A stretch of 64,000 nt of DNA, taken from contig NZ_CP108143.1 of NCBI RefSeq assembly GCF_036206005.1, positions 2,728,001 through 2,792,000 on the forward strand, written 5' to 3'. The notes beneath the pieces were generated by a model, which was not told the origin of the DNA, did no database searches, and worked only from the letters and a program-made list of their open reading frames with translations. Source of the stretch: Streptomyces sp. NBC_00178 (lineage in GTDB: Bacteria; Actinomycetota; Actinomycetes; Streptomycetales; Streptomycetaceae). Position numbers and translations under genes: made by a program. Below, in pieces: positions 1,523-12,486 of this stretch (within the stretch, counting starts at the first letter, position 1; every line of letters begins with the position of its first letter).

Positions 1523-2470
1523 ATGCCGCACGCCACCACCGCGACACCGTCCTCCGGTCCCCGGCCCCGTTGGTGGACGGAGCTCCCGCTGATAGCGGTG
1601 GTGTACGGGCTGTACTCGGCGGGACGGCTCCTGGTCAGGGAGGACGTGCCCGCGGCCGTGGAACACGGGCTCGCGATACTCCGCCTGGAGAAGTCACTCC
1701 ACCTGAACGCCGAGCACCCCCTCAACCGGCTGCTCACCGCCCACCCCTCCCTGGGCATACCCGCCGACTTCGCGTACGCCTCACTGCACTACCTCGTCAC
1801 CCCGGCCGTGCTGATCTGGCTGTTCCGCCGCCGGACCGCGGTCTACCGCGCGGCCCGCACCTGGCTGATGACCTCCACGCTCCTCGGCCTCGTCGGCTTC
1901 ACGCTGATGCCGACCTGCCCGCCCCGGCTGCTCGACGCCCACCACGGTTTCGTCGACACGATGGCCCAGTACAGCGCGTACGGCTGGTGGGGCGCCGGCG
2001 CGAGCGCCCCGCGCGGACTCAGCGGAATGACCAACCAGTACGCGGCGATGCCGAGCCTCCACGTCGGCTGGGCCCTGTGGTGCGGCGTGCTGCTGTGGCG
2101 CCACGGCCGCCACCCGCTCGTCCGGGCGGCCGGCGTCGCCTACCCCCTGCTCACCGTCCTCGTCGTCATGGGCACGGCCAACCACTATTTCCTCGACGCC
2201 GTGGCCGGTGCCGCCGTGATGGCCGTGGGTGCGCTGCTGACCAGGCCGTTCATGTGGATCGCGGACGGCGTGAAGGGCAGGGTCGCGGCCCTGTTCGCCC
2301 GGCCCCCGGCCGTCGCCGTCCCCATGAGATCCACGATTGTCAGTGACGGATGCAAGACTTCCGCGGGTGAGCGAATACCCGGCAGGCGGACCCCCTCCGC
2401 AGATTCCATTGACGCGAGCACCGGCTTCGCGGCCCAGGCCAGCGACGACGCTCCGGCAGCGGCTCGCTGA
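1523..2470 (+). CDS. PAP2 / Aur1-like membrane phosphatase-transferase
   Basis: 315 aa with about six hydrophobic helices. The signature [13 protein letters not shown] (about residue 175) followed by [10 protein letters not shown] supplies the two catalytic histidines and Asp of the PAP2 superfamily, in the Aur1/inositol-phosphotransferase-like branch common in actinobacteria. Such enzymes dephosphorylate or transfer lipid-phosphate head groups at the membrane; the substrate is unknown. The ATG at 1523 has GGGGAGAG 6-7 nt upstream. The last 45 or so residues (after [10 protein letters not shown]) are polar and unlike a PAP2 tail. They are encoded in DNA that also encodes the start of the nuclease gene in another frame, an overlap of 134 bp. 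Confidence 0.85.
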
Positions 2471-3551
2471 GCTGCGCGGACCGTCCGTCGCGCCGCATCC
2501 GCTCGACGCACGCGCCCTGGCCGCGCTCGCCGCGAACCCGGGGTGCAGGCGACGCGCGCTGCTCGACGGCGCGGGTGTCGACAAGGCCGGGCTGGCCACC
2601 GCTCTCGGCTCGGGCGCCACGTTCGGCCAGTCGCAGTTCGCGTTCGTCCGGGGCAACGCCTTCGAGGCGAAGGTCAAGGCGGACGGCGGCACGGAGCTGC
2701 TGCGCCTGCTCTTCGAGCGCCTCGGTGACGGGGCGGACTCCCCCGGTGAGGCCTCGGTCCCCGACCTGACGGCCGCCGGGCCCGAGGGACGGGCCGCGCG
2801 TACGGCGCTGGCGCTCCGGGAGGCCACCGAGGCCGGCGGCTGGGCGCTGCTGGACCATCCGATGCTGGCCCTGGAGGTGGCGGGCTCCCCCGCCTATCTG
2901 GAACCCGACGCCGTGGTGGTGCACCCCGACGGCACCTGGACGGTCGTCGAGATCAAGTCCTTCCCCATGATCGACGCCTCGGCGGACGCCGCGAAGGTCG
3001 GAGCGGCCGCCCGCCAGTCCGCCGTCTACGTCCTCGCCCTGGAGCGGGTGGCCGCGGTGACCGAGGGCGCCCGGGTCGGGCACCGGGTCCTGCTGGTCTG
3101 CCCGAAGGACTTCTCCAACCTGCCGACCGCCTCGGTCGTGGACGTGCGCAAGCAGCGCGCCGTCACCCTGCGCCAGCTGACCCGGCTCACCCGCGTCGAG
3201 GACATCGCGGCGGCGCTCCCCGAGGGCACGACCTTCGCCCCCGACCGCACCCCCGAGGAGCTCGGCACCGCAGTGGAGGCGGTCCCCGCGGCGTACGCAC
3301 CAGAGTGCCTCGCCGCCTGCGAGCTGGCCTTCCACTGCCGGGCGAAGGCACGGGAACGGGGCGCGGTGGAGTCACTGGGCCGGAGCGTGCGGGGCGAGCT
3401 CGGGGGCCTGACGACCGTCGCCGGGGTGCTGGCCGCCGCGGCCGGCAAGGAGGGCGACCCCGCCGACCCGACGGTCGCGGCCCTGCGCCGGGCCGCCGCG
3501 CTGCGGGCCGAAGCACTCGGGAGCGCGAGGGACGGCGCCGCATGTCGCTGA
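2337..3551 (+). CDS. Fe-S cluster RecB/Cas4/Dna2-like nuclease
   Basis: 404 aa from the TTG at 2337. It shows the ordered PD-(D/E)XK nuclease motifs of the RecB/Cas4/Dna2 group: GNAFE (about 107-110), His in LDHPML (174), Asp191 in EPDAVVV, EIK (205-207) and QxxxY (Q227-Y231). Four cysteines frame the core in the Fe-S pattern of AddB, Cas4 and Dna2: Cys70 in NPGCRRR, then Cys324-x3-Cys328-x5-Cys334 (CLAACELAFHC). The expected activity is metal-dependent DNA end processing. The start is uncertain: GTG at 2343 or 2367 and TTG at 2409 are alternatives, none has a good ribosome site, and no start codon lies between 2410 and Cys70. The gene must therefore overlap the PAP2 gene. The next gene overlaps its 3' end. 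Confidence 0.8.
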   Translation: MSVTDARLPRVSEYPAGGPPPQIPLTRAPASRPRPATTLRQRLAELRGPSVAPHPLDARALAALAANPGCRRRALLDGAGVDKAGLATALGSGATFGQSQFAFVRGNAFEAKVKADGGTELLRLLFERLGDGADSPGEASVPDLTAAGPEGRAARTALALREATEAGGWALLDHPMLALEVAGSPAYLEPDAVVVHPDGTWTVVEIKSFPMIDASADAAKVGAAARQSAVYVLALERVAAVTEGARVGHRVLLVCPKDFSNLPTASVVDVRKQRAVTLRQLTRLTRVEDIAAALPEGTTFAPDRTPEELGTAVEAVPAAYAPECLAACELAFHCRAKARERGAVESLGRSVRGELGGLTTVAGVLAAAAGKEGDPADPTVAALRRAAALRAEALGSARDGAACR

Positions 3552-5161
3552 TCACCACACTGGCCCGGCTCGAGGCGGTGGACAGCGGGCGGGCCCAGCC
3601 GCTGGCGACCGTGCGCCACCGCCATCTGGCCGACGAGCCGCTCGTGCTCGTGCCGTTGACCACCGCCGGTGAGGCCGGCGCCCCGCTCGGCGCGCTCGTC
3701 GGCACGGACCGCGCGGCGCCCCGGCTGCTGGTGGTGGCACAGCCGCGCGACCGCGACCTGCGGTTCGCCTTCCTCGCCGAACTGGCCGAGGCGGTGCTCC
3801 CGCACATCGAGTCCCACGCGGACGCCGTCGAGCCCGCCGAGCGCGCGGAGACCGATCCGGAGACCGGCAAGAAGGTCAAGGTCGAGGTCGAACTCTGCTC
3901 GGACGCTGCCCAGCTGGTGGTTCCCAGCCGGGCGGGCATCGACTTCGTGCGGCTGCTCGGCCGGTCCATGCGCTTCCGCCGCACGGTGGAGGACGACCCG
4001 GACACGCCGTATCCGGCACCCGCCCGCGTGCCCCTGCTCGGGCGCTGGCTGACGCACTACGGCGAGCGGGCGCGGGTCCCCGGTTCGTCGCTGCTGCTCG
4101 CCACGACCGATCTGCTCAACCGCCACTGGGCGACGGGGCAGAGCAGCCTGGAGGACCAGCACCTCGGCGCGCTGCTCGCCTGGGTCGACCCGCCGGCCGG
4201 CGCGTCCGGGGCGGAGGCGGCGCTGCGGGCGGAGCTGGACCGGGACCGGGCCGGCCAGCTGGTCTGGCCCCCGGCGGGTCCGGCGACGGACCCGGCGTTC
4301 GACAACAAGCTGCTGGCACCCGCGATCGAGCGGTTCGACCGGGCGCGCACGGCGCTCGCGGCGGCCGAGGACGGCCTCTCGGCCGACGCCCGGCTCGGCG
4401 AACTGGCCGCCGCCGAGCGGGACATCAGGTCGCTCCTCTCCGGGGTGCTGCTGCCCACGTGGGACGCCGTGTGGCGGGGGCTGGACCTGCTGCGGGAGCT
4501 TCCGGAGGGGTCCAGGGCCGAGGACCGCTGGACGCGGGACCGCTGGTCCTTCACCGCGCACCGGGACCGTGTGCGCGCGGGTGAGCCGCCGCAGCCGCGC
4601 CGGGACGACGCGGTGACGGCGGCGCAGAAGCTGGCCTCGCGGGAGACGGCGCAGGCCCAGCTGGACGCCCAGGAGGCTCTGGACGACCCGCTGGTGCTCG
4701 CCGGGCGCCGGCTCGCGGGCGAGGCGTTCGTCGGGGAGGTGACGGAGGTGCGGATGGCGTACAGCGAGTCGAAGCGGCCGTCGCCGCGCCCGCTGGTCAC
4801 CGTGCGCACCACCGAACGCCCGCATCTCGGCGAGCGGACCAAGGTGTACCGCTCGCTGGAGGGCAAGCCGCAGACGGCGGAGTTCGCGGGGCACGCCGAG
4901 GCGGCGGACTCCGGGGGCGCGCAGGACGCGGAGGCCGTGCACCTCGTCCTGCGGATCACCGACCGCATGGGGCGCGGCAAGGAGCCCGCCCCGGGTTCGC
5001 TGCCCGAGCCGGGCGACCGGATCGCCTGGACCCTGTTCGAGCACGACCAGCGGGGCGGCCCGAAGCTGCCCGACCCGGACGACACCCCGTGGACGCACGG
5101 CGGCCCGCCCGGCGGACCGCCGGAGCAGCCCGACCCCGTGACCGCGGAGGACCTCCTGTGA
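3542..5161 (+). CDS. Unrecognised protein between Fe-S nuclease and SF1 helicase
   Basis: 539 aa, start ATG 3542, overlapping the nuclease stop by 10 bp and overlapping the helicase start by 4 bp. I do not recognise a family. The N-terminal 150 residues are mixed alpha/beta, the middle (about 240-400) is Ala/Glu/Arg-rich and probably helical, and the C-terminal part (about 400-520) alternates short strand-like stretches (FVGEVTEVRM, LVTVRTT, VHLVLRITDRMG, GDRIAWTLFEHD). That last part looks like a beta-barrel or OB-like module. The last 25 residues are Pro/Gly/Asp-rich and disordered. Dna2 and Upf1-like helicases carry a beta-barrel before the helicase core, so this protein may supply the missing barrel or act as a bridge between the two enzymes. 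That is inference from position and strand pattern only. Confidence 0.7.
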   Translation: MSLITTLARLEAVDSGRAQPLATVRHRHLADEPLVLVPLTTAGEAGAPLGALVGTDRAAPRLLVVAQPRDRDLRFAFLAELAEAVLPHIESHADAVEPAERAETDPETGKKVKVEVELCSDAAQLVVPSRAGIDFVRLLGRSMRFRRTVEDDPDTPYPAPARVPLLGRWLTHYGERARVPGSSLLLATTDLLNRHWATGQSSLEDQHLGALLAWVDPPAGASGAEAALRAELDRDRAGQLVWPPAGPATDPAFDNKLLAPAIERFDRARTALAAAEDGLSADARLGELAAAERDIRSLLSGVLLPTWDAVWRGLDLLRELPEGSRAEDRWTRDRWSFTAHRDRVRAGEPPQPRRDDAVTAAQKLASRETAQAQLDAQEALDDPLVLAGRRLAGEAFVGEVTEVRMAYSESKRPSPRPLVTVRTTERPHLGERTKVYRSLEGKPQTAEFAGHAEAADSGGAQDAEAVHLVLRITDRMGRGKEPAPGSLPEPGDRIAWTLFEHDQRGGPKLPDPDDTPWTHGGPPGGPPEQPDPVTAEDLL

Positions 5162-6492
5162 CAGCCGTGACCGACCCGGGCGCCGCCGCCGCGGAAGCGA
5201 CCGCCGCGATCCTCGGTGACACTCTGCGCGGCACGTCGCGCGGCATCGTGGTGGACTCCCCGCCGGGCGCGGGCAAGTCGACGCTGGTGGTGCGTGCCGC
5301 GCTGGAGCTCGCGGCGGCCGGACGCCCTCTGATGGTGGTCGCGCAGACCAACGCCCAGGTGGACGACCTGGTGCTGCGGCTGGCGGAGAAGGCCCCGGAC
5401 CTCCCGGTGGGCCGCCTGCACAGCAGCGACTCCGATCCGTACGACAAGGCGCTGGACGGCCTGGACCACGTGCGGAAGTCGGCGAAGGCGGCGGATCTGG
5501 CCGGACTGGACATCGTGATCTCGACGGCGGCCAAGTGGGCCCACGTGAAGAACGTGGAGCCGTGGGGGCACGCGATCGTCGACGAGGCGTACCAGATGCG
5601 GTCGGACGCCCTGCTGGCCGTGGCCGGGCTGTTCGAGCGGGCGCTGTTCGTCGGGGACCCGGGGCAGCTCGATCCCTTCTCGATCGTGGGCGCGGACCAG
5701 TGGGCCGGCCTGTCGTACGACCCCTCGGCGAGCGCCGTCTCGACGCTGCTCGCCCACAACCCCCAGCTGCCCCAGCACCGCCTGCCGGTGTCGTGGCGGC
5801 TCCCGGCGTCGGCGGCCCCGCTGGTCTCGGGCGCCTTCTACCCGTACACGCCCTTCCGCAGCGGGACGGACCACGGCGACCGGCGGCTGTCGTTCGGTGT
5901 GCCCTCGGACGGGTCGGGCCCCGACCGGGTGCTGGACGAGGCCGCGGAGTCCGGGTGGGGGCTGCTGGAGCTCCCGGCCCGGCACACCCCGCGTACGGAC
6001 CCGGAGGCCGTGCGGGCGGTGGCCCTGGTGGTGCGCAGGCTGCTGGACCGGGGCGGCGCGGCGACGAGCGAGCGCGGCCCGGACCCGGTTCCGGTGACGG
6101 CGGAGCGGGTCGCGGTCGGCACGGCCCACCGCGACCAGGCGGCGGCGGTACGGGCCGCGCTGGCCGAGCTGGGTGTGACGGGTGTGGCGGTGGACACGGC
6201 GAACCGGCTCCAGGGCCGTGAGTTCGACGTGACGGTGGTCCTGCATCCGCTGTCGGGCCGCCCGGACGCGACGGCGTTCCACCTGGAGACGGGCCGGCTG
6301 TGCGTGCTCGCCTCGCGGCACCGGCACGCGTGCGTGGTGGTCTGCCGGGAGGGGGTGGCCGACCTGCTGGACGAGCACCCGTCGACGGAGCCGGTCCAGC
6401 TGGGCGTGACGGTGAAGTTCCCCGACGGCTGGGAGGCGAACCACGCGGTTCTGGCGCATCTCGCCGAGCATCGCGTGCATTGGTCGCCCTGA
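5158..6492 (+). CDS. SF1 (Upf1/Dna2-like) helicase
   Basis: 444 aa. The GTG at 5158 overlaps the previous TGA (GTGA) and has GGAGG at 5146-5150, so translational coupling is likely. All core SF1 motifs are visible: Walker A SPPGAGKST (34-42), motif Ia VVAQTNAQ, Walker B/motif II VDEAY (141-145), motif III FVGDPGQLDP (about 164-173), motif IV-like SWRLP, motif V DTANRLQGREFD and motif VI-like RLCVLASRHRHA. The SPPGAGKS P-loop and GDPGQL motif III favour the Upf1/Dna2-like SF1B branch, which moves 5' to 3', over UvrD/Rep. Motif VI has ASRHRH where classical members have TRA. At 444 aa it is a bare motor, with no nuclease domain of its own. Confidence 0.85.
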   Translation: MTAVTDPGAAAAEATAAILGDTLRGTSRGIVVDSPPGAGKSTLVVRAALELAAAGRPLMVVAQTNAQVDDLVLRLAEKAPDLPVGRLHSSDSDPYDKALDGLDHVRKSAKAADLAGLDIVISTAAKWAHVKNVEPWGHAIVDEAYQMRSDALLAVAGLFERALFVGDPGQLDPFSIVGADQWAGLSYDPSASAVSTLLAHNPQLPQHRLPVSWRLPASAAPLVSGAFYPYTPFRSGTDHGDRRLSFGVPSDGSGPDRVLDEAAESGWGLLELPARHTPRTDPEAVRAVALVVRRLLDRGGAATSERGPDPVPVTAERVAVGTAHRDQAAAVRAALAELGVTGVAVDTANRLQGREFDVTVVLHPLSGRPDATAFHLETGRLCVLASRHRHACVVVCREGVADLLDEHPSTEPVQLGVTVKFPDGWEANHAVLAHLAEHRVHWSP

Positions 6493-6565: not shown

Positions 6566-6907
6566 ATGGCACAACCCGAGCGGAACGAGCGGCAGAGGCT
6601 GCGTCCGGCGCCGCTGCTCTTCGAGCCGTCCGCGGCGGCAGCCGACCCGGAACACTTCTTCGACCTGGAGTCGATGGACGATCCGAAGGAGCTGCTGGCC
6701 CGCGCGACGGAGCTGACGCTCGCCTTCCGGGCGGCCACCGACCGGGCCGTGGAGTTCCAGGCCGTGGCGGCCGCCCAGCTCGCCGATCCGCGCAGGTTCG
6801 ACCGGCTGACCGCCGCCGACATAGCGGAGCGGGCGGAGTGGACCGAGGACTACGCCAAGAAGATGATCGAGTTCGGCAGATCCCTGCTGGACAACCCCGC
6901 GCCCTGA
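6566..6907 (+). CDS. Small conserved hypothetical protein downstream of the helicase
   Basis: 113 aa, acidic and helical, with no membrane segment. The ATG at 6566 follows GAGGAAGG by about 9 nt. The sequence has an N-terminal linker (LRPAPLLFEPSAA) and a helical body (LFRAATDRAVEF-type segments, ending DYAKKMIEFGRSLLDN). I recognise no domain, though the style is that of conserved Streptomyces hypotheticals. It starts 73 bp after the helicase on the same strand, so it could be the fourth gene of that operon or have its own promoter in the gap. No function is assigned. Confidence 0.65.
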   Translation: MAQPERNERQRLRPAPLLFEPSAAAADPEHFFDLESMDDPKELLARATELTLAFRAATDRAVEFQAVAAAQLADPRRFDRLTAADIAERAEWTEDYAKKMIEFGRSLLDNPAP

Positions 6908-6959: not shown

Positions 6960-7195
6960 CGTGCCGACCGGTGGACGTGACGACCGTGCACGTGACGGCG
7001 GTGACGACGGGTGCACGTGAGGACGGGTGCGCGCGACGACCGGTGCACGCGACGACCGGCTGCTGTGACGGCTGTGACGCGGGACACCGGGTGCGCTCAA
7101 GGGCAGTGCCCGTGACGGCTGCGACGCGTGACAACGGGTGTACGCGGGGGCGGTGCACGTGACGGCCGTACGCGTGACGGCGGGTACACCCGTGG
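6960..7195. repeat. Degenerate GTGACG-rich repeat region
   Basis: Within the 385-bp gap 6908-7292 there is a run of imperfect short units built on GTGACG(G/A)C and GTGCACG (for example around 6974, 6991, 7000, 7065, 7110, 7158, 7176). Spacing is irregular, roughly 8-30 bp. The region is not a CRISPR because there is no fixed repeat length or spacer. The frames that stay open across it are repeat artefacts. The rest of the gap holds the leader of the next gene. Confidence 0.6.
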
Positions 7196-8322: not shown

Positions 8323-11300
8323 TTGCGCGCTTTACGTATATCCCGCCCGCCCTTCGGGCGGGTACTGGTCACCTGGACGGCGGCGCTCGGCGCAGCCGCG
8401 GTGGCGGTGCTGGGAGTCCAGACACCGTCCTGGGCCCAGAACCCCTCACCCCCGGCCGCGACTGCGGCCACAGCCACCGCGGCGGGTGACGCAGAGGTGC
8501 CCTTCGAGGCGGCCTGCGGCGCCGCGAAGAAGGGCGAGGCCACCTGTTTCGCCCTGCGGCGCACCGATGTGCAGCCGTCGAAGGGCCTGCGGACGGCGAC
8601 TGCACCGGGCGGCTTCGGACCGGCCGACCTGCGTTCGGCCTACAACCTGCCCGACGACGGCGGTGCGGGGCAGACCATCGCCGTCGTCGACGCGTTCGAC
8701 GATCCGACCGCCGAGGACGACCTGGCGGTCTACCGCGAGCAGTACGGCCTGCCCGCGTGCACCACGGACAACGGCTGCTTCCGGAAGGTCGACCAGCGCG
8801 GCGGCACCGGCTATCCGCAGCCCGACCCCGACTGGGCCGGGGAGATATCGCTCGACCTCGACATGGTCTCCGCGATCGCCCCGAACGCTCACATCCTGCT
8901 CGTCGAGGCCGACAGCCCCACCTTCGAGGACCTCGGCGCCGCCGTGGACCAGGCGGTGGAGCTGGGCGCCGGGTTCGTCTCCAATTCCTACGGGACCGAC
9001 TACCGCTCCGGCAGCGGTGAGGACCCCTCCGACTCGACTGAGTTGGAGGCCCACTACGACCACCCCGGCGTGGCGATGGTCGCCTCCTCCGGCGACTTCG
9101 GACACGGCGTGTCCTACCCGGCCGCGTCGCCGCACGTGACCGCCGTGGGCGGCACCTCGCTGACCGCCGACAGCGGCACCGAGCGGGGCTGGTCCGAGAC
9201 CGTCTGGGACGGCGCCGGGTCGGGATGCTCGCTCTACCAGCCGAAGCCGGCCTTCCAGAAGGACACCGGCTGCGAGAACCGGGCGGTCGCCGACGTCGCC
9301 GCGGTCGCCGACCCCGCCACCCCCGTCGCCGTGTACCAGACGTACGGTGCCGGCGGCTGGGCGCAGTACGGCGGCACGAGCGCCGGCGCCCCCATCATCG
9401 CCGCGGTCTACGCGAACGCCGGCACCCCTGCCGGCGGGACCTACCCCAACTCCTATCCCTACGACGCGGGTTCCGGCCTGAACGACGTGACCGGGGGCAG
9501 CAACGGCACCTGCGCCCCGGCCTACCTGTGCTCGGGCGCCGTCGGATACGACGGCCCGACGGGCCTGGGCACCCCCGACGGCCTGCGTGCCTTCCGCGCC
9601 GGCCCGCACGGGACGCTGTCCGGCACCGTGACCGACCGGTCCACGGGCACGCCGCTCGCGGGTGCCGTGGTCAGCACCGGTGACGGCGTCGCCACCCGCA
9701 GCGGAGCCGACGGGGGTTACACCCTCGACGTCCCGGTGGGCACGCACGACGTGACCGCCGACGCCTACGGCTACGCCACCGGCACCGCCGAGGACGTGGC
9801 CGTCACCGACGGCACCACGCTGGAACGGGACTTCGCGCTGGCCCCCGTACCGAGTCAGCCGGTCTCCGGCAAGGTCACCGACGGCTCGGGGCACGACTGG
9901 CCGCTGTACGCGAGGATCACCGTGAGCGGGGTCCCCGGAGGTCCGGTGTGGACCGACCCGGCCACCGGCGCGTTCACGCTGAGCCTCCCGCAGGGGCACG
10001 CCTACACGCTGCGCGCGGAGGCCTACCTGCCCGGCTACACGCCCGTGACCAGGACCGTCACGGTCGGCGACGCGCCCCAGTCGCTGAAGGTGCCGCTGTC
10101 GGCCGATCCCTGGAAGGCCACCGCGCCCGGCTACGCCGTGCACCTGGCGGGACCCACCGAGCACTTCGCCGCCACCGACTCGGCCCCCCAGGGCTGGAAG
10201 GTCGTCAACGCCGACGGCACCGAGGGCGGCTGGGCGTTCGACGACCCGGGCGGGCAGGGCAACCAGACCGGCGGTGACGGCGCCTTCGCCGTCGCCGACA
10301 ACGCCACGATCGGGTCGCCCTTCGACTCCCAGCTGATCAGCCCCGCCTTCGACCTCACCGGTACGGCCGATCCCGAACTCGCCTTCGGCGCCATGTACTG
10401 GGCGGCCGGGGACGACGCGATCTCGGCCGACGCCAGTTCCGACGGCGGAGCCACCTGGAAGACCGTGTGGAGGACGACGGCGGGCTTCGCGGACCACGCG
10501 AGGATCGAGGTCCCGCTCACCGGCTTCGCCGGGGAGCCGGACGTCCGGGTGCGCTTCCACTTCGTCACCCAGTTCGCGTGGTGGTGGGGCATCGACGACG
10601 TCTTCGTCGGCAACCGCGACTACGCCCCGACGCCCGGCGGTCTCGTCACCGGCACGGTGACCGACGCCAACACGGGCAAGGGCCTGGCCGGCGCCACCGT
10701 CACCGCGAAGGACGACCCGAAGGTGACCACGACCACGGTCGCCACCCCCGGCGACCCCGCGCTCGACGACGGCCTCTACCTCCTGTTCTCGCCGGGTACG
10801 GGCAGGCATGACGTCACCGCGGCAAGGCCCCGCTACACACAGCTCACGAAGACCGTGGCCGTCGCCGCGGACAGTGCCGTCCCGGTCTCCTTCAAGCTCA
10901 GGGCCGGGCAGCTGACGGTGAACCCGGAATCCGTCGGCGCCACCGTCGGATGGGGGAAGTCGGCCGCCCGGAACCTGACGGTGAAGAACACCGGCGGCGC
11001 GCCCGTATCGGTCACCGTGGGCGAGCGGTCGGGCGGTTTCCACCCCCAGTCCGCGGGAGCCGGCGCTCCGCTGCAGACCGTCAAGGGGAAGTTCTCCCCG
11101 TACGCGAGCAAGAAGGGCACGGCACCGGCCCGGCGGACGCCCGCCGCCCCCTCCGGCTCCGCCTGGCAGAGCGCGCCCGACCTCCCGGAGACGGTCCTCG
11201 GCAACGCGGTCGGCACCCACGAGGGCAAGGTGTACTCCGCCTTCGGGTTCGACGGACGCGGCGTCACCGGCAAGATGTTCGTCCTGGACCCGGTCGTCGG

Positions 11301-12486
11301 CACCTGGACGGAGGCGGCCGCGGCGGCCGACGGCCGGGAGGCGCCCTCGGGCCAGTTCGTCGACGGCAGGTTCTATGCCGTCGGCGGCTGGCGCGCGGAC
11401 GGCACCACCGACCCCGAGCTGGAGATCTACGATCCCGGCACCGACACCTGGACCACCGGGGCACCGGCCCCCGTGGCCTACGCGGGGCAGGGCAACGCGG
11501 CGCTCGACGGCAAGCTCTACACCGTGGGCGGCTGCGACGTCGGCTGCGGCACCGTCGAGGCGTACGCCTACGACCCCGGCGCCGACACCTGGTCCCGGAT
11601 CGCCGACTACCCGGAGCGGACCTCCTGGGAGTCCTGCGCCGGTGTCAACGGCAAGCTGTACTGCGCCGGGGGCAACGCCGACTCCGTCGGCGAGAGCGAC
11701 CACGCCTACGTCTACGACCCGGGCGCCGACTCCTGGACGGCGCTTCCCGACCTCCCCATCCCGCTGTGGAGTTCGTCCTACGCCGCGGCCGGCGACCAGC
11801 TCGTGATGTCGAGCGGTATCACCCACGAGGCGATCACCAACCAGGGCTTCGCCTTCGACCCGGAGGCCGGTGCCTGGTCCGCACTGCCCAACGCCGACCT
11901 GGCGACGTACCGCGGCGGCGCGGGCCTCGGCCTCTACAAGGTCGGCGGCGGAAGCGCGCCGTACACCCCCAGCAAGACCGTGGAGCTGCTGCCGGGTTAC
12001 GACCAGGGCGGGGAGACCGACGTCACCTGGCTGAGCACGGATGCCAAGCGGTTCACGCTGCAGCCGGGGGCGAGTGCGACGGTGGCCGTCACGCTGGACG
12101 CCTCGGTGCCCGAGGTCGCCCAGCCGGGTGACTTCACCGCCGTGCTGACGCTCGACAACGACACCCCGTACGGGATGCGGAAGCTCCCGGTGTCGCTGCA
12201 CGTCGACCCGCCGAAGACCTGGGGCAAGATCACCGGGACGATCCGCGGTGTCCAGAGCGACGGCACCACCAAGCCGCTCGCCGGCGCGACCGTCGAGATC
12301 ACCAGCTGGGCGGCGGGCTACTCCCTCCGGACGGCTGCCGACGGCACGTACTCCCTGTGGCTGGACGCCCGGAACAACCCGCTGCAGGTCATCGTCGCCA
12401 AGGACGGCTACCGGCCGGTGGCCACCACCCTGAAGATCACGAAGGGGGCGGTCGTCACCGGCGACTTCACTCTGAAGAAGCAGTAG
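8323..12486 (+). CDS. Secreted S53 (sedolisin-like) protease with carboxypeptidase-regulatory-like and kelch domains
   Basis: 1387 aa. TTG start at 8323 with AGGAGAG 7 nt upstream and a signal peptide to about residue 38 (PSWAQ). The S53 triad is clear: Glu174 and Asp178 in GEISLDLDM, oxyanion Asp258 in ASSGDFG, Ser353 in GGTSAGAPI. The domain begins at GPADLRSAYNLP near residue 99, so only about 60 residues lie between signal peptide and catalytic domain. The usual long pro-kumamolisin prodomain is missing. After about residue 432 come carboxypeptidase-regulatory-like beta-sandwiches (LSGTVTDRSTGTPLAGA), a MAM-like region (about 600-765), kelch repeats (about 945-1240, GKLYTVGG, NGKLYCAGG) and a final regulatory-like domain. 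It is likely an exported or surface protease. A paralogue lies tail-to-tail at 12572-16459. Confidence 0.88.
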   Translation: MRALRISRPPFGRVLVTWTAALGAAAVAVLGVQTPSWAQNPSPPAATAATATAAGDAEVPFEAACGAAKKGEATCFALRRTDVQPSKGLRTATAPGGFGPADLRSAYNLPDDGGAGQTIAVVDAFDDPTAEDDLAVYREQYGLPACTTDNGCFRKVDQRGGTGYPQPDPDWAGEISLDLDMVSAIAPNAHILLVEADSPTFEDLGAAVDQAVELGAGFVSNSYGTDYRSGSGEDPSDSTELEAHYDHPGVAMVASSGDFGHGVSYPAASPHVTAVGGTSLTADSGTERGWSETVWDGAGSGCSLYQPKPAFQKDTGCENRAVADVAAVADPATPVAVYQTYGAGGWAQYGGTSAGAPIIAAVYANAGTPAGGTYPNSYPYDAGSGLNDVTGGSNGTCAPAYLCSGAVGYDGPTGLGTPDGLRAFRAGPHGTLSGTVTDRSTGTPLAGAVVSTGDGVATRSGADGGYTLDVPVGTHDVTADAYGYATGTAEDVAVTDGTTLERDFALAPVPSQPVSGKVTDGSGHDWPLYARITVSGVPGGPVWTDPATGAFTLSLPQGHAYTLRAEAYLPGYTPVTRTVTVGDAPQSLKVPLSADPWKATAPGYAVHLAGPTEHFAATDSAPQGWKVVNADGTEGGWAFDDPGGQGNQTGGDGAFAVADNATIGSPFDSQLISPAFDLTGTADPELAFGAMYWAAGDDAISADASSDGGATWKTVWRTTAGFADHARIEVPLTGFAGEPDVRVRFHFVTQFAWWWGIDDVFVGNRDYAPTPGGLVTGTVTDANTGKGLAGATVTAKDDPKVTTTTVATPGDPALDDGLYLLFSPGTGRHDVTAARPRYTQLTKTVAVAADSAVPVSFKLRAGQLTVNPESVGATVGWGKSAARNLTVKNTGGAPVSVTVGERSGGFHPQSAGAGAPLQTVKGKFSPYASKKGTAPARRTPAAPSGSAWQSAPDLPETVLGNAVGTHEGKVYSAFGFDGRGVTGKMFVLDPVVGTWTEAAAAADGREAPSGQFVDGRFYAVGGWRADGTTDPELEIYDPGTDTWTTGAPAPVAYAGQGNAALDGKLYTVGGCDVGCGTVEAYAYDPGADTWSRIADYPERTSWESCAGVNGKLYCAGGNADSVGESDHAYVYDPGADSWTALPDLPIPLWSSSYAAAGDQLVMSSGITHEAITNQGFAFDPEAGAWSALPNADLATYRGGAGLGLYKVGGGSAPYTPSKTVELLPGYDQGGETDVTWLSTDAKRFTLQPGASATVAVTLDASVPEVAQPGDFTAVLTLDNDTPYGMRKLPVSLHVDPPKTWGKITGTIRGVQSDGTTKPLAGATVEITSWAAGYSLRTAADGTYSLWLDARNNPLQVIVAKDGYRPVATTLKITKGAVVTGDFTLKKQ

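Follow-up and report, generated by a model that had tools for sequence, protein, structure and literature searches.

A three-gene operon and its predicted products

The subject of this analysis is an operon of three plus-strand genes near the beginning of a 64-kb stretch of DNA from Streptomyces sp. NBC_00178 (positions 2,728,001-2,792,000 of a 7.3-Mb contig; the whole stretch is hereafter called the window). The first gene encodes a predicted nuclease of the Cas4/EXO5/Dna2 type, the second a protein of 539 amino acids (aa) that we refer to as the middle protein, and the third an Upf1/Dna2-like superfamily 1 (SF1) helicase (Table 1). An earlier note on this DNA, derived from the letters alone, had likened the trio to eukaryotic Dna2 split into pieces, with the middle protein in the place of the Dna2 barrel. 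Upon re-checking, the coordinates and frames of the genes proved exact, as did the two stop-to-start overlaps given in that note (10 bp, then GTGA); among 136 loci, the first of these, measured to the start of the hit, spans 10 bp in 77 and 4 bp in another 30 (107/136). The TTG start of gene 1 remains unproven because the conserved part of the protein begins at about residue 38 and because the first 134 bp are shared with an open reading frame (ORF) of the PAP2 family that lies 5' of the trio and ends at position 2470.

The nuclease signature described in the earlier note (GxxFE, Asp191, EIK and QxxxY) and the frame of four cysteines, of which one precedes the nuclease core and three follow it, were found where that note had placed them. 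In an alignment of 36 nuclease rows (without loci L049 and L051), C70, F109, D191, Y231, C324, C328 and C334 are unchanged throughout. All 11 scored positions, and with them the complete signature, are kept in 184 of the 189 fetched loci, including the window copy, and the four cysteines are kept in all 189 (some of these loci overlap or share one genome, so that they do not stand for 189 genomes). Loss of the catalytic motifs among homologs, a concern raised in the earlier note, is confined to the remaining five loci, in which the nuclease looks inactivated: in four related accessory copies (L068, L069, L075 and L076), E110 is changed to H, E205 to L and K207 to R, and in L067, E110 is changed to T, E205 to A and Q227 to E.

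By sequence comparison, gene 1 scores 14.6 bits against Pfam PDDEXK_1, below the curated cut-off of 22, and 7 of its 36 relatives match this family at E 0.1 or better; NCBIfam gave no match at E 1. The matches of the nuclease profile in PDB below E 0.1 were two designed proteins (E 1e-7 and 1e-5, positions 25-99), which we take to reflect the helical, alanine-rich N-terminus. Foldseek matched the AlphaFold2 model (predicted local distance difference test, pLDDT, 88.6) to the Cas4-family protein ACE1 (E 2.1e-4) and to RecE below E 0.001 and, with values slightly above that, to MGME1 and to SSO0001, a Cas4 protein; VIA-align matched it to Cas4 with a Z score of 10.6 over residues 38-361, a range that therefore covers all four cysteines. 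Further VIA-align matches were EXO5 (Z 8.4), RecE, AddAB and AdnA, with Dna2 lower (Z 6.4). The motifs, the cysteines and the modeled fold identify gene 1 as a nuclease of the Cas4/EXO5/Dna2 type, which bears out the clade proposed in the earlier note; its product would bind an iron-sulfur (Fe-S) cluster and cut single-stranded DNA.

The product of gene 3 matches Pfam AAA_11 and AAA_12 above their cut-offs, and the helicase profile matches Dna2 (E 2.3e-11), Smubp-2 (E 5.1e-11) and Upf1. The 13 scored motif residues are unchanged in 177 of 177 loci, and the assignment to Upf1/Dna2-like SF1 helicases stands. In helicases of this type, a beta-barrel known as domain 1B and a stalk precede the first RecA domain. 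In the loci compared here (the helicase alignment is without L055 and L059, which have no helicase at the locus), Walker A begins 29-62 residues into the chain, counted from the chosen start, in 35 of 36 cases (99 in L078), the distance from the stop of the middle gene to Walker A is at most 81 codons in 33 of 36 (92 in L057, 98 in L078 and 156 in L084), and Walker A and Walker B are 98-111 residues apart. These short distances leave no place for 1B in the helicase chain of nearly all loci, and gene 3, as read from its sequence, is an Upf1/Dna2-like SF1B motor devoid of a 1B domain of its own. It is presumed to translocate 5'-3' and to act on DNA.

The middle protein of the window has no Pfam match above cut-off and no NCBIfam match, and a sequence search of PDB with the middle profile returned nothing up to E 10. 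Its model (pLDDT 90.1, predicted template modeling score 0.88) has an N-terminal part with an RNase H-like fold, followed by long helices and, at the C-terminus, a barrel, the latter being the strand-rich C-terminus that the earlier note had anticipated. The barrel aligns with domain 1B of Sen1 (residues 1177-1286) at VIA-align Z 8.8 (87 aligned residues, root-mean-square deviation, rmsd, 2.7), and residues 355-515 align with Senataxin (Setx) at Z 8.7 (rmsd 7.0). On its own, the barrel would not be conclusive; the match to Sen1 is meaningful because the strict partner of this protein is a helicase without 1B. With a Sen1/Setx-like barrel in the middle protein and no room for one in the helicase, the proposal that the middle protein takes the place of the Dna2 barrel is plausible at the level of folds, with the amendment that most of the protein is not a barrel. 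The tail that follows the barrel is modeled with low confidence in the lone chain despite its invariant W517, T518 and H519, as might be expected of a segment that binds a partner.

The RNase H-like part aligns with the exonuclease domain of archaeal family B DNA polymerases at VIA-align Z 9.2 (about 180 aligned residues, rmsd 3.6), and the matched ranges end between residues 322 and 384. In an ungapped alignment of ranges (residue 31 of the middle protein at KOD 135), in which the residue-level correspondence is not visible, V37 and L39 fall on the positions of the exonuclease motif residues D141 and E143 of KOD; there is no acidic residue at positions 37 and 39 in 183 of 183 loci. If the first exonuclease motif is read in this way, without gaps, catalysis by the RNase H-like domain is therefore unlikely.

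Table 1 Coordinates of the trio and its motifs in the window, and loci that carry the fourth gene, X
Feature	Position	Strand	Remark
Gene 1	2337..3551	+	Predicted Cas4/EXO5/Dna2-type PD-(D/E)XK nuclease, four-cysteine putative Fe-S frame; 404 aa, TTG start (uncertain)
Cys70, first putative Fe-S ligand	2544..2546	+	Invariant in alignment
GNAFE motif, residues 106-110 (G106, F109, E110)	2652..2666	+	E110 lost in 5/189 loci
Asp191 of LEPD	2907..2909	+	Invariant
EIK, residues 205-207	2949..2957	+	E205 lost in 5/189 loci
QxxxY, residues 227-231	3015..3029	+	Q227 changed in 1/189 loci
Cys324-x3-Cys328-x5-Cys334, remaining putative Fe-S ligands	3306..3338	+	Invariant
Stop/start overlap of genes 1 and 2	3542..3551	+	10 bp
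Gene 2, middle protein	3542..5161	+	539 aa, ATG start
RNase H-like fold, residues 31-330 of middle protein	3632..4531	+	Best match: family B DNA polymerase exonuclease domains
Beta-barrel like SF1B helicase domain 1B, residues 388-500 of middle protein	4703..5041	+	Sen1 1B match
TPWTHGGPP tail motif, residues 515-523 of middle protein	5084..5110	+	W517, T518, H519 invariant
Overlap of genes 2 and 3	5158..5161	+	4 bp, GTGA
Gene 3	5158..6492	+	Upf1/Dna2-like SF1 helicase motor, predicted to lack 1B domain; 444 aa, GTG start
Walker A region SPPGAGKST, residues 34-42 of helicase	5257..5283	+	Conserved motif
Walker B DEAYQ, residues 142-146 of helicase	5581..5595	+	Conserved motif
X-bearing loci	L048-L053, L060-L064, L067-L077, L198, L199	Same strand as nuclease	

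Co-inheritance of the trio and a distant middle-helicase pair

The earlier note had suggested a survey of conservation in Streptomyces. Of 61 Streptomyces genomes, the genome of the window counted, 59 carry the middle gene (G037 and G050, the latter 82% complete, do not). Across the phylum, 10 of 246 genomes have it, and within the class 70 of 394, representing 15 of 137 genera. Searches with the helicase profile (E 1e-60) and with the nuclease protein (E 1e-10) likewise picked out 70 of these 394 genomes each, and the three lists, compared by eye, name the same 70 genomes. Conversely, G037 and G517, both complete Streptomyces genomes, have neither the middle gene nor the helicase (E 1e-10), and the same holds for the 82%-complete G050. 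In G262 and G479, the helicase gene has been relocated, by about 36 and 49 kb respectively, away from the nuclease and middle genes, yet is retained. Among 137 fetched loci, some of which share a genome, 130 contain all three genes, six the nuclease and middle genes, and one the middle and helicase genes. The six loci without the helicase are those of the relocated genes (L055 and L059) and four in which the stretch ends soon after or within the middle gene (L105, L107, L182 and L185); in the single locus without the nuclease (L169), there is a masked stretch at its place. The core Streptomyces copies share their chromosomal neighbors, and a Nonomuraea record of the plasmid set is among the distant carriers of the trio. 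Two candidate gene fusions, nuclease-middle in L122 and middle-helicase in L169, were rejected as artefacts of masked stretches, L169 also having a frame break inside the middle gene.

Helicase matches were found on 47 plasmid records, three of which are trio records. On plasmids of Rhodococcus, Euzebya and Mycolicibacterium (L200, L201 and L202), a hypothetical protein of about 400-450 aa is encoded directly upstream of the helicase. In these three stretches, as in L203, the profiles of the nuclease and of a fourth gene, X (see below), found nothing at E 1; both found their targets in L199. Profile-profile comparison with hhalign relates the upstream proteins to the middle family (probability 95.7, E 9.3e-9, 336 columns including the N-terminus and the barrel region), the controls with the nuclease and fourth-gene profiles yielding 0.04 and 0.3. 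Furthermore, a plain search with the middle profile found the Euzebya protein at E 1.2e-9. Among the matches listed (40 of the 47 records), 31 of the 37 helicase rows outside the trio have a match to the upstream protein in the same record, at a distance from the helicase of at most 550 bp in 30 rows and 1.6 kb in one. Judging from these sequences, the middle protein and the helicase look like a separable unit that is joined by a nuclease in the Streptomyces-type trio. In L200 and L202, a tiny ORF and a gene for a VWA-like protein precede the pair.

Searches for a viral connection were negative: the 10 pattern hits of the middle profile in viral_contigs were not confirmed, and no phage record was found for the middle protein or for the plasmid helicase, so that we rejected a phage or viral origin. 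Genes 1 and 2 match no PADLOC family at E 1. We did not recognize a description of the trio in open-licence PubMed Central full texts, a scope that mostly excludes subscription papers.

A fourth gene, accessory copies and their neighbors

In 24 of 40 compared loci (Table 1), a gene that we denote X, encoding a protein of about 260-330 aa with no confident Pfam match, is located directly upstream of the nuclease. X was found in 7 of 24 genomes searched; six core-only Streptomyces genomes, that of NBC_00178 among them, lack it throughout, as do four genomes of family f78 and two of family f6 of the genome collection. On a tree of the joined middle and helicase sequences (35 rows, without L055, L059 and L058, the f6 genomes, which have no X, hence being outside the tree), two changes are needed to explain the presence of X. 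Rooting on L064, which has the longest branch and carries X, would make this gene ancestral, with losses in the f78 clade and in the core clade of Streptomyces (support 100/99); a root on a long branch is, however, unsure.

The gene for SbcD is located divergently beside X in 10 of the 40 loci, in nine of them together with that for SbcC. JetA1-type Wadjet genes are nearby in the SbcD loci L070, L198 and L199, and JetA2 and/or JetB2 in L063, L064 and L074; some genes of the SbcD locus L077 group with genes of L074. A helicase with an HA domain is encoded at L070, L071 and L072, and a type IV restriction-like protein at L073. On two Streptomyces plasmids, SbcCD, X, the trio and Wadjet JetABCD form one block (6-22.4 kb of L198, NZ_CP108489.1, and L199, NZ_CP027023.1), and both Streptomyces plasmid records that match JetA of the L198/L199 type at E 1e-30 (n=2) carry the trio cassette. 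The annotation of L199 has the SbcCD side fragmented into small ORFs. The four related copies with an inactivated-looking nuclease have a second, different PD-(D/E)XK gene (PprPDDEXK-like) divergent upstream; beyond this, HmaA and HmaB are encoded downstream in L068, and an HKD-Snf2 helicase in L076. Hma is a DUF499-centered, BREX-related system in a survey of BREX (PMC12839542), in which we saw no description of the trio and the main text of which has no mention of Dna2, Upf1, SbcC, RecB or Wadjet. Several accessory copies are close to ends: that of G631 lies about 15 kb from one end of its contig, G049 has copies about 21 kb from each end, and on a linear plasmid the distance to the end is about 11-16 kb. 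Others, such as that of G009, are internal.

Paralogous copies of the trio thus adjoin defense and methylase genes, and it is this neighborhood of paralogs that suggests a link of the trio to defense. The earlier note had pointed to defense-island neighbors as something to look for: they were found beside the accessory copies, and no defense or methylase genes were seen next to the window copy, the comparison covering the first 20 kb of the window and a few defense proteins. In that range, JetA-D, HmaA and HmaB have no match (tblastn, E 1e-12; HmaC was not among the queries), and SbcCD was not found beside the window copy. The operon is directly followed by a 113-aa ORF of unknown family (6566-6907), relatives of which are located 3' of the trio in seven of eight Streptomyces core loci compared, mostly within 200 bp. 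Further downstream are a gap with short imperfect tandem repeats of CGTGACG-like units with periods of 16 and 47 (6960-7189) and a 1387-aa ORF (8323-12486) that, judged by eye, reads as secreted, peptidase-like and Kelch-like.

A proposed three-chain Dna2-like enzyme, rival readings and known systems

We consider it fairly probable (about 0.6) that the products of the three genes are subunits of a single ATP-driven, three-chain DNA-end-processing enzyme resembling Dna2. The observations behind this reading are the gene order, the co-inheritance, the folds, the conservation of motifs, a motor without 1B and the pairing of middle protein and helicase in a second lineage; that the three chains form a complex is presumed. 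Within it, the C-terminal barrel of the middle protein would substitute in trans for the missing 1B of the helicase, the docking being suggested by the fold match, and the middle protein would serve as a scaffold whose RNase H-like part is probably catalytically dead. The motor may pass single-stranded DNA on to the nuclease where there are ends or flaps. The chromosomal copy of Streptomyces might be a vertically kept housekeeping function in end processing because its presence is near-universal, and the X-bearing copies, which became associated with SbcCD (Mre11-Rad50) and with Wadjet, Hma or further defense modules, probably process invading or broken DNA, to judge from their neighbors. A broader scenario is tentative and, in our estimate, somewhat improbable as a whole: 1B would have become a separate subunit of a bacterial SF1B helicase, this ancient two-gene split helicase would have gained a Cas4-like nuclease to yield a three-chain Dna2, and mobile copies, with SbcCD and the fourth protein, would have become an end-degrading module shared by Wadjet, Hma and other defense systems.

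Several findings weigh against the three-chain enzyme. Generic flavin-reductase barrels reach Z 7.8, one Z unit under Sen1 1B, which is the limit at which the tool calls a tie, and Foldseek alone produced no match for the middle protein below E 0.001. There are no natural fusions of the trio genes among the 137 loci, and the counts of co-occurrence are not phylogenetically independent because the genomes are related. The loss of catalytic residues in 5 of 189 nuclease loci implies that cutting by gene 1 is not always needed. As for the distant pair, the Rhodococcus and Mycolicibacterium homologs were missed by the middle profile at E 1 without profile-profile comparison, and 6 of the 37 helicase rows among the matches listed have no hit to a middle homolog; these come from Euzebya (where the homolog is present by position), from two Pseudarthrobacter and two Arthrobacter records and from one of Paenarthrobacter, and the one Pseudarthrobacter record examined has a hypothetical gene on the opposite strand upstream of the helicase.

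It is doubtful, in our judgment, that the trio is a dedicated defense against phages or plasmids, of which the Streptomyces chromosomal copy would be a domesticated or minimal form. The accessory copies beside Wadjet (JetA-D or JetA2/B2), HmaA/HmaB, the HKD-Snf2 helicase and the type IV restriction-like protein, many of them with divergent SbcCD, are what such a system would predict, as are the copies close to chromosome or plasmid ends and the cassettes on both plasmid records matching JetA. However, near-universal presence in Streptomyces (59 of 61 genomes for the middle gene) and common chromosomal neighbors of the core copies are unlike the patchy occurrence of defense genes, and neither the PADLOC families, for genes 1 and 2, nor viral contigs and phages, for the middle protein, provided a match.

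Less credible still is that three co-regulated proteins act apart, as an RNA or DNA helicase with the middle protein as its own cofactor and as an independent Cas4-like nuclease. Sen1, Setx and Upf1 are RNA helicases, the middle-helicase pairs occur on Rhodococcus, mycobacterial and Euzebya plasmids with no match to the nuclease profile at E 1 in the three stretches compared, and inactivation affects the nuclease and never the scored helicase residues; against this stand the strict three-way co-occurrence in the 394 genomes and the 10- or 4-bp overlap between genes 1 and 2 seen in most loci. A role in maintaining the ends of linear replicons is very improbable: it would fit a distribution that includes nearly all Streptomyces and the subtelomeric accessory copies of G631, G049 (at both ends, as in terminal repeats) and the linear plasmid, but the main copy is far from the ends (2.73 Mb into the 7.3-Mb contig), a subtelomeric position is also typical of mobile or defense cargo, and the complete genomes G037 and G517 do without the middle gene and helicase.

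Collectively, the interpretation of the earlier note was supported in part, with respect to the nuclease, the helicase, the barrel (at the level of folds) and the co-inheritance, and did not foresee the RNase H-like and helical part of the middle protein, the distant pair, gene X or the paralogs in defense neighborhoods. Given an unnamed operon in nearly every Streptomyces tested, a basic DNA-processing activity of this industrially important genus may be uncharacterized. If the barrel works in trans, nature would have provided a Dna2 in three pieces, from which the nuclease, the barrel or the motor could be taken away singly, so that the role of each Dna2 domain would be directly testable. 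The accessory copies, in turn, suggest one resection-type module common to Mre11-Rad50, Wadjet and BREX-like defense.

Among known systems, gene 1 resembles the Cas4, EXO5 and AddB nucleases in its fold (Z up to 10.6) and in its PD-(D/E)XK and QxxxY residues, whereas it falls below the PDDEXK_1 cut-off, has a long helical N-terminal part and is accompanied by the middle protein and the helicase in each of the 70 class genomes that carry it. Gene 3 shares its motifs and profile matches with the SF1B helicases Upf1, Sen1, Smubp-2 and Dna2 and differs from them by a chain without the N-terminal 1B barrel and stalk. A fused architecture, TM0106/TIGR03491, combines a Cas4-like domain, RNase_H_2 and a helicase; the notion that the trio is a split form of it was not supported, gene 1 having no NCBIfam match and the genome no match to TIGR03491. 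Wadjet and the BREX-related Hma are close neighbors of accessory trio copies, in contrast to which genes 1 and 2 themselves match no PADLOC model. SbcD adjoins the Dna2-like trio in 10 of 40 cassettes, reminiscent of eukaryotic resection by Mre11-Rad50 and Dna2, with the difference that the association is bacterial and known here from gene clusters only. Eukaryotic Dna2 itself is a single polypeptide, whereas the trio consists of three separate chains, of which the middle one has, in addition, an RNase H-like domain and a long helical stretch, and the likeness of the barrels is one of folds only; nevertheless, both have a Cas4-type nuclease with a four-cysteine frame, an Upf1-like motor and, in the order of genes or domains, a barrel between them, which in the trio is a modeled one.

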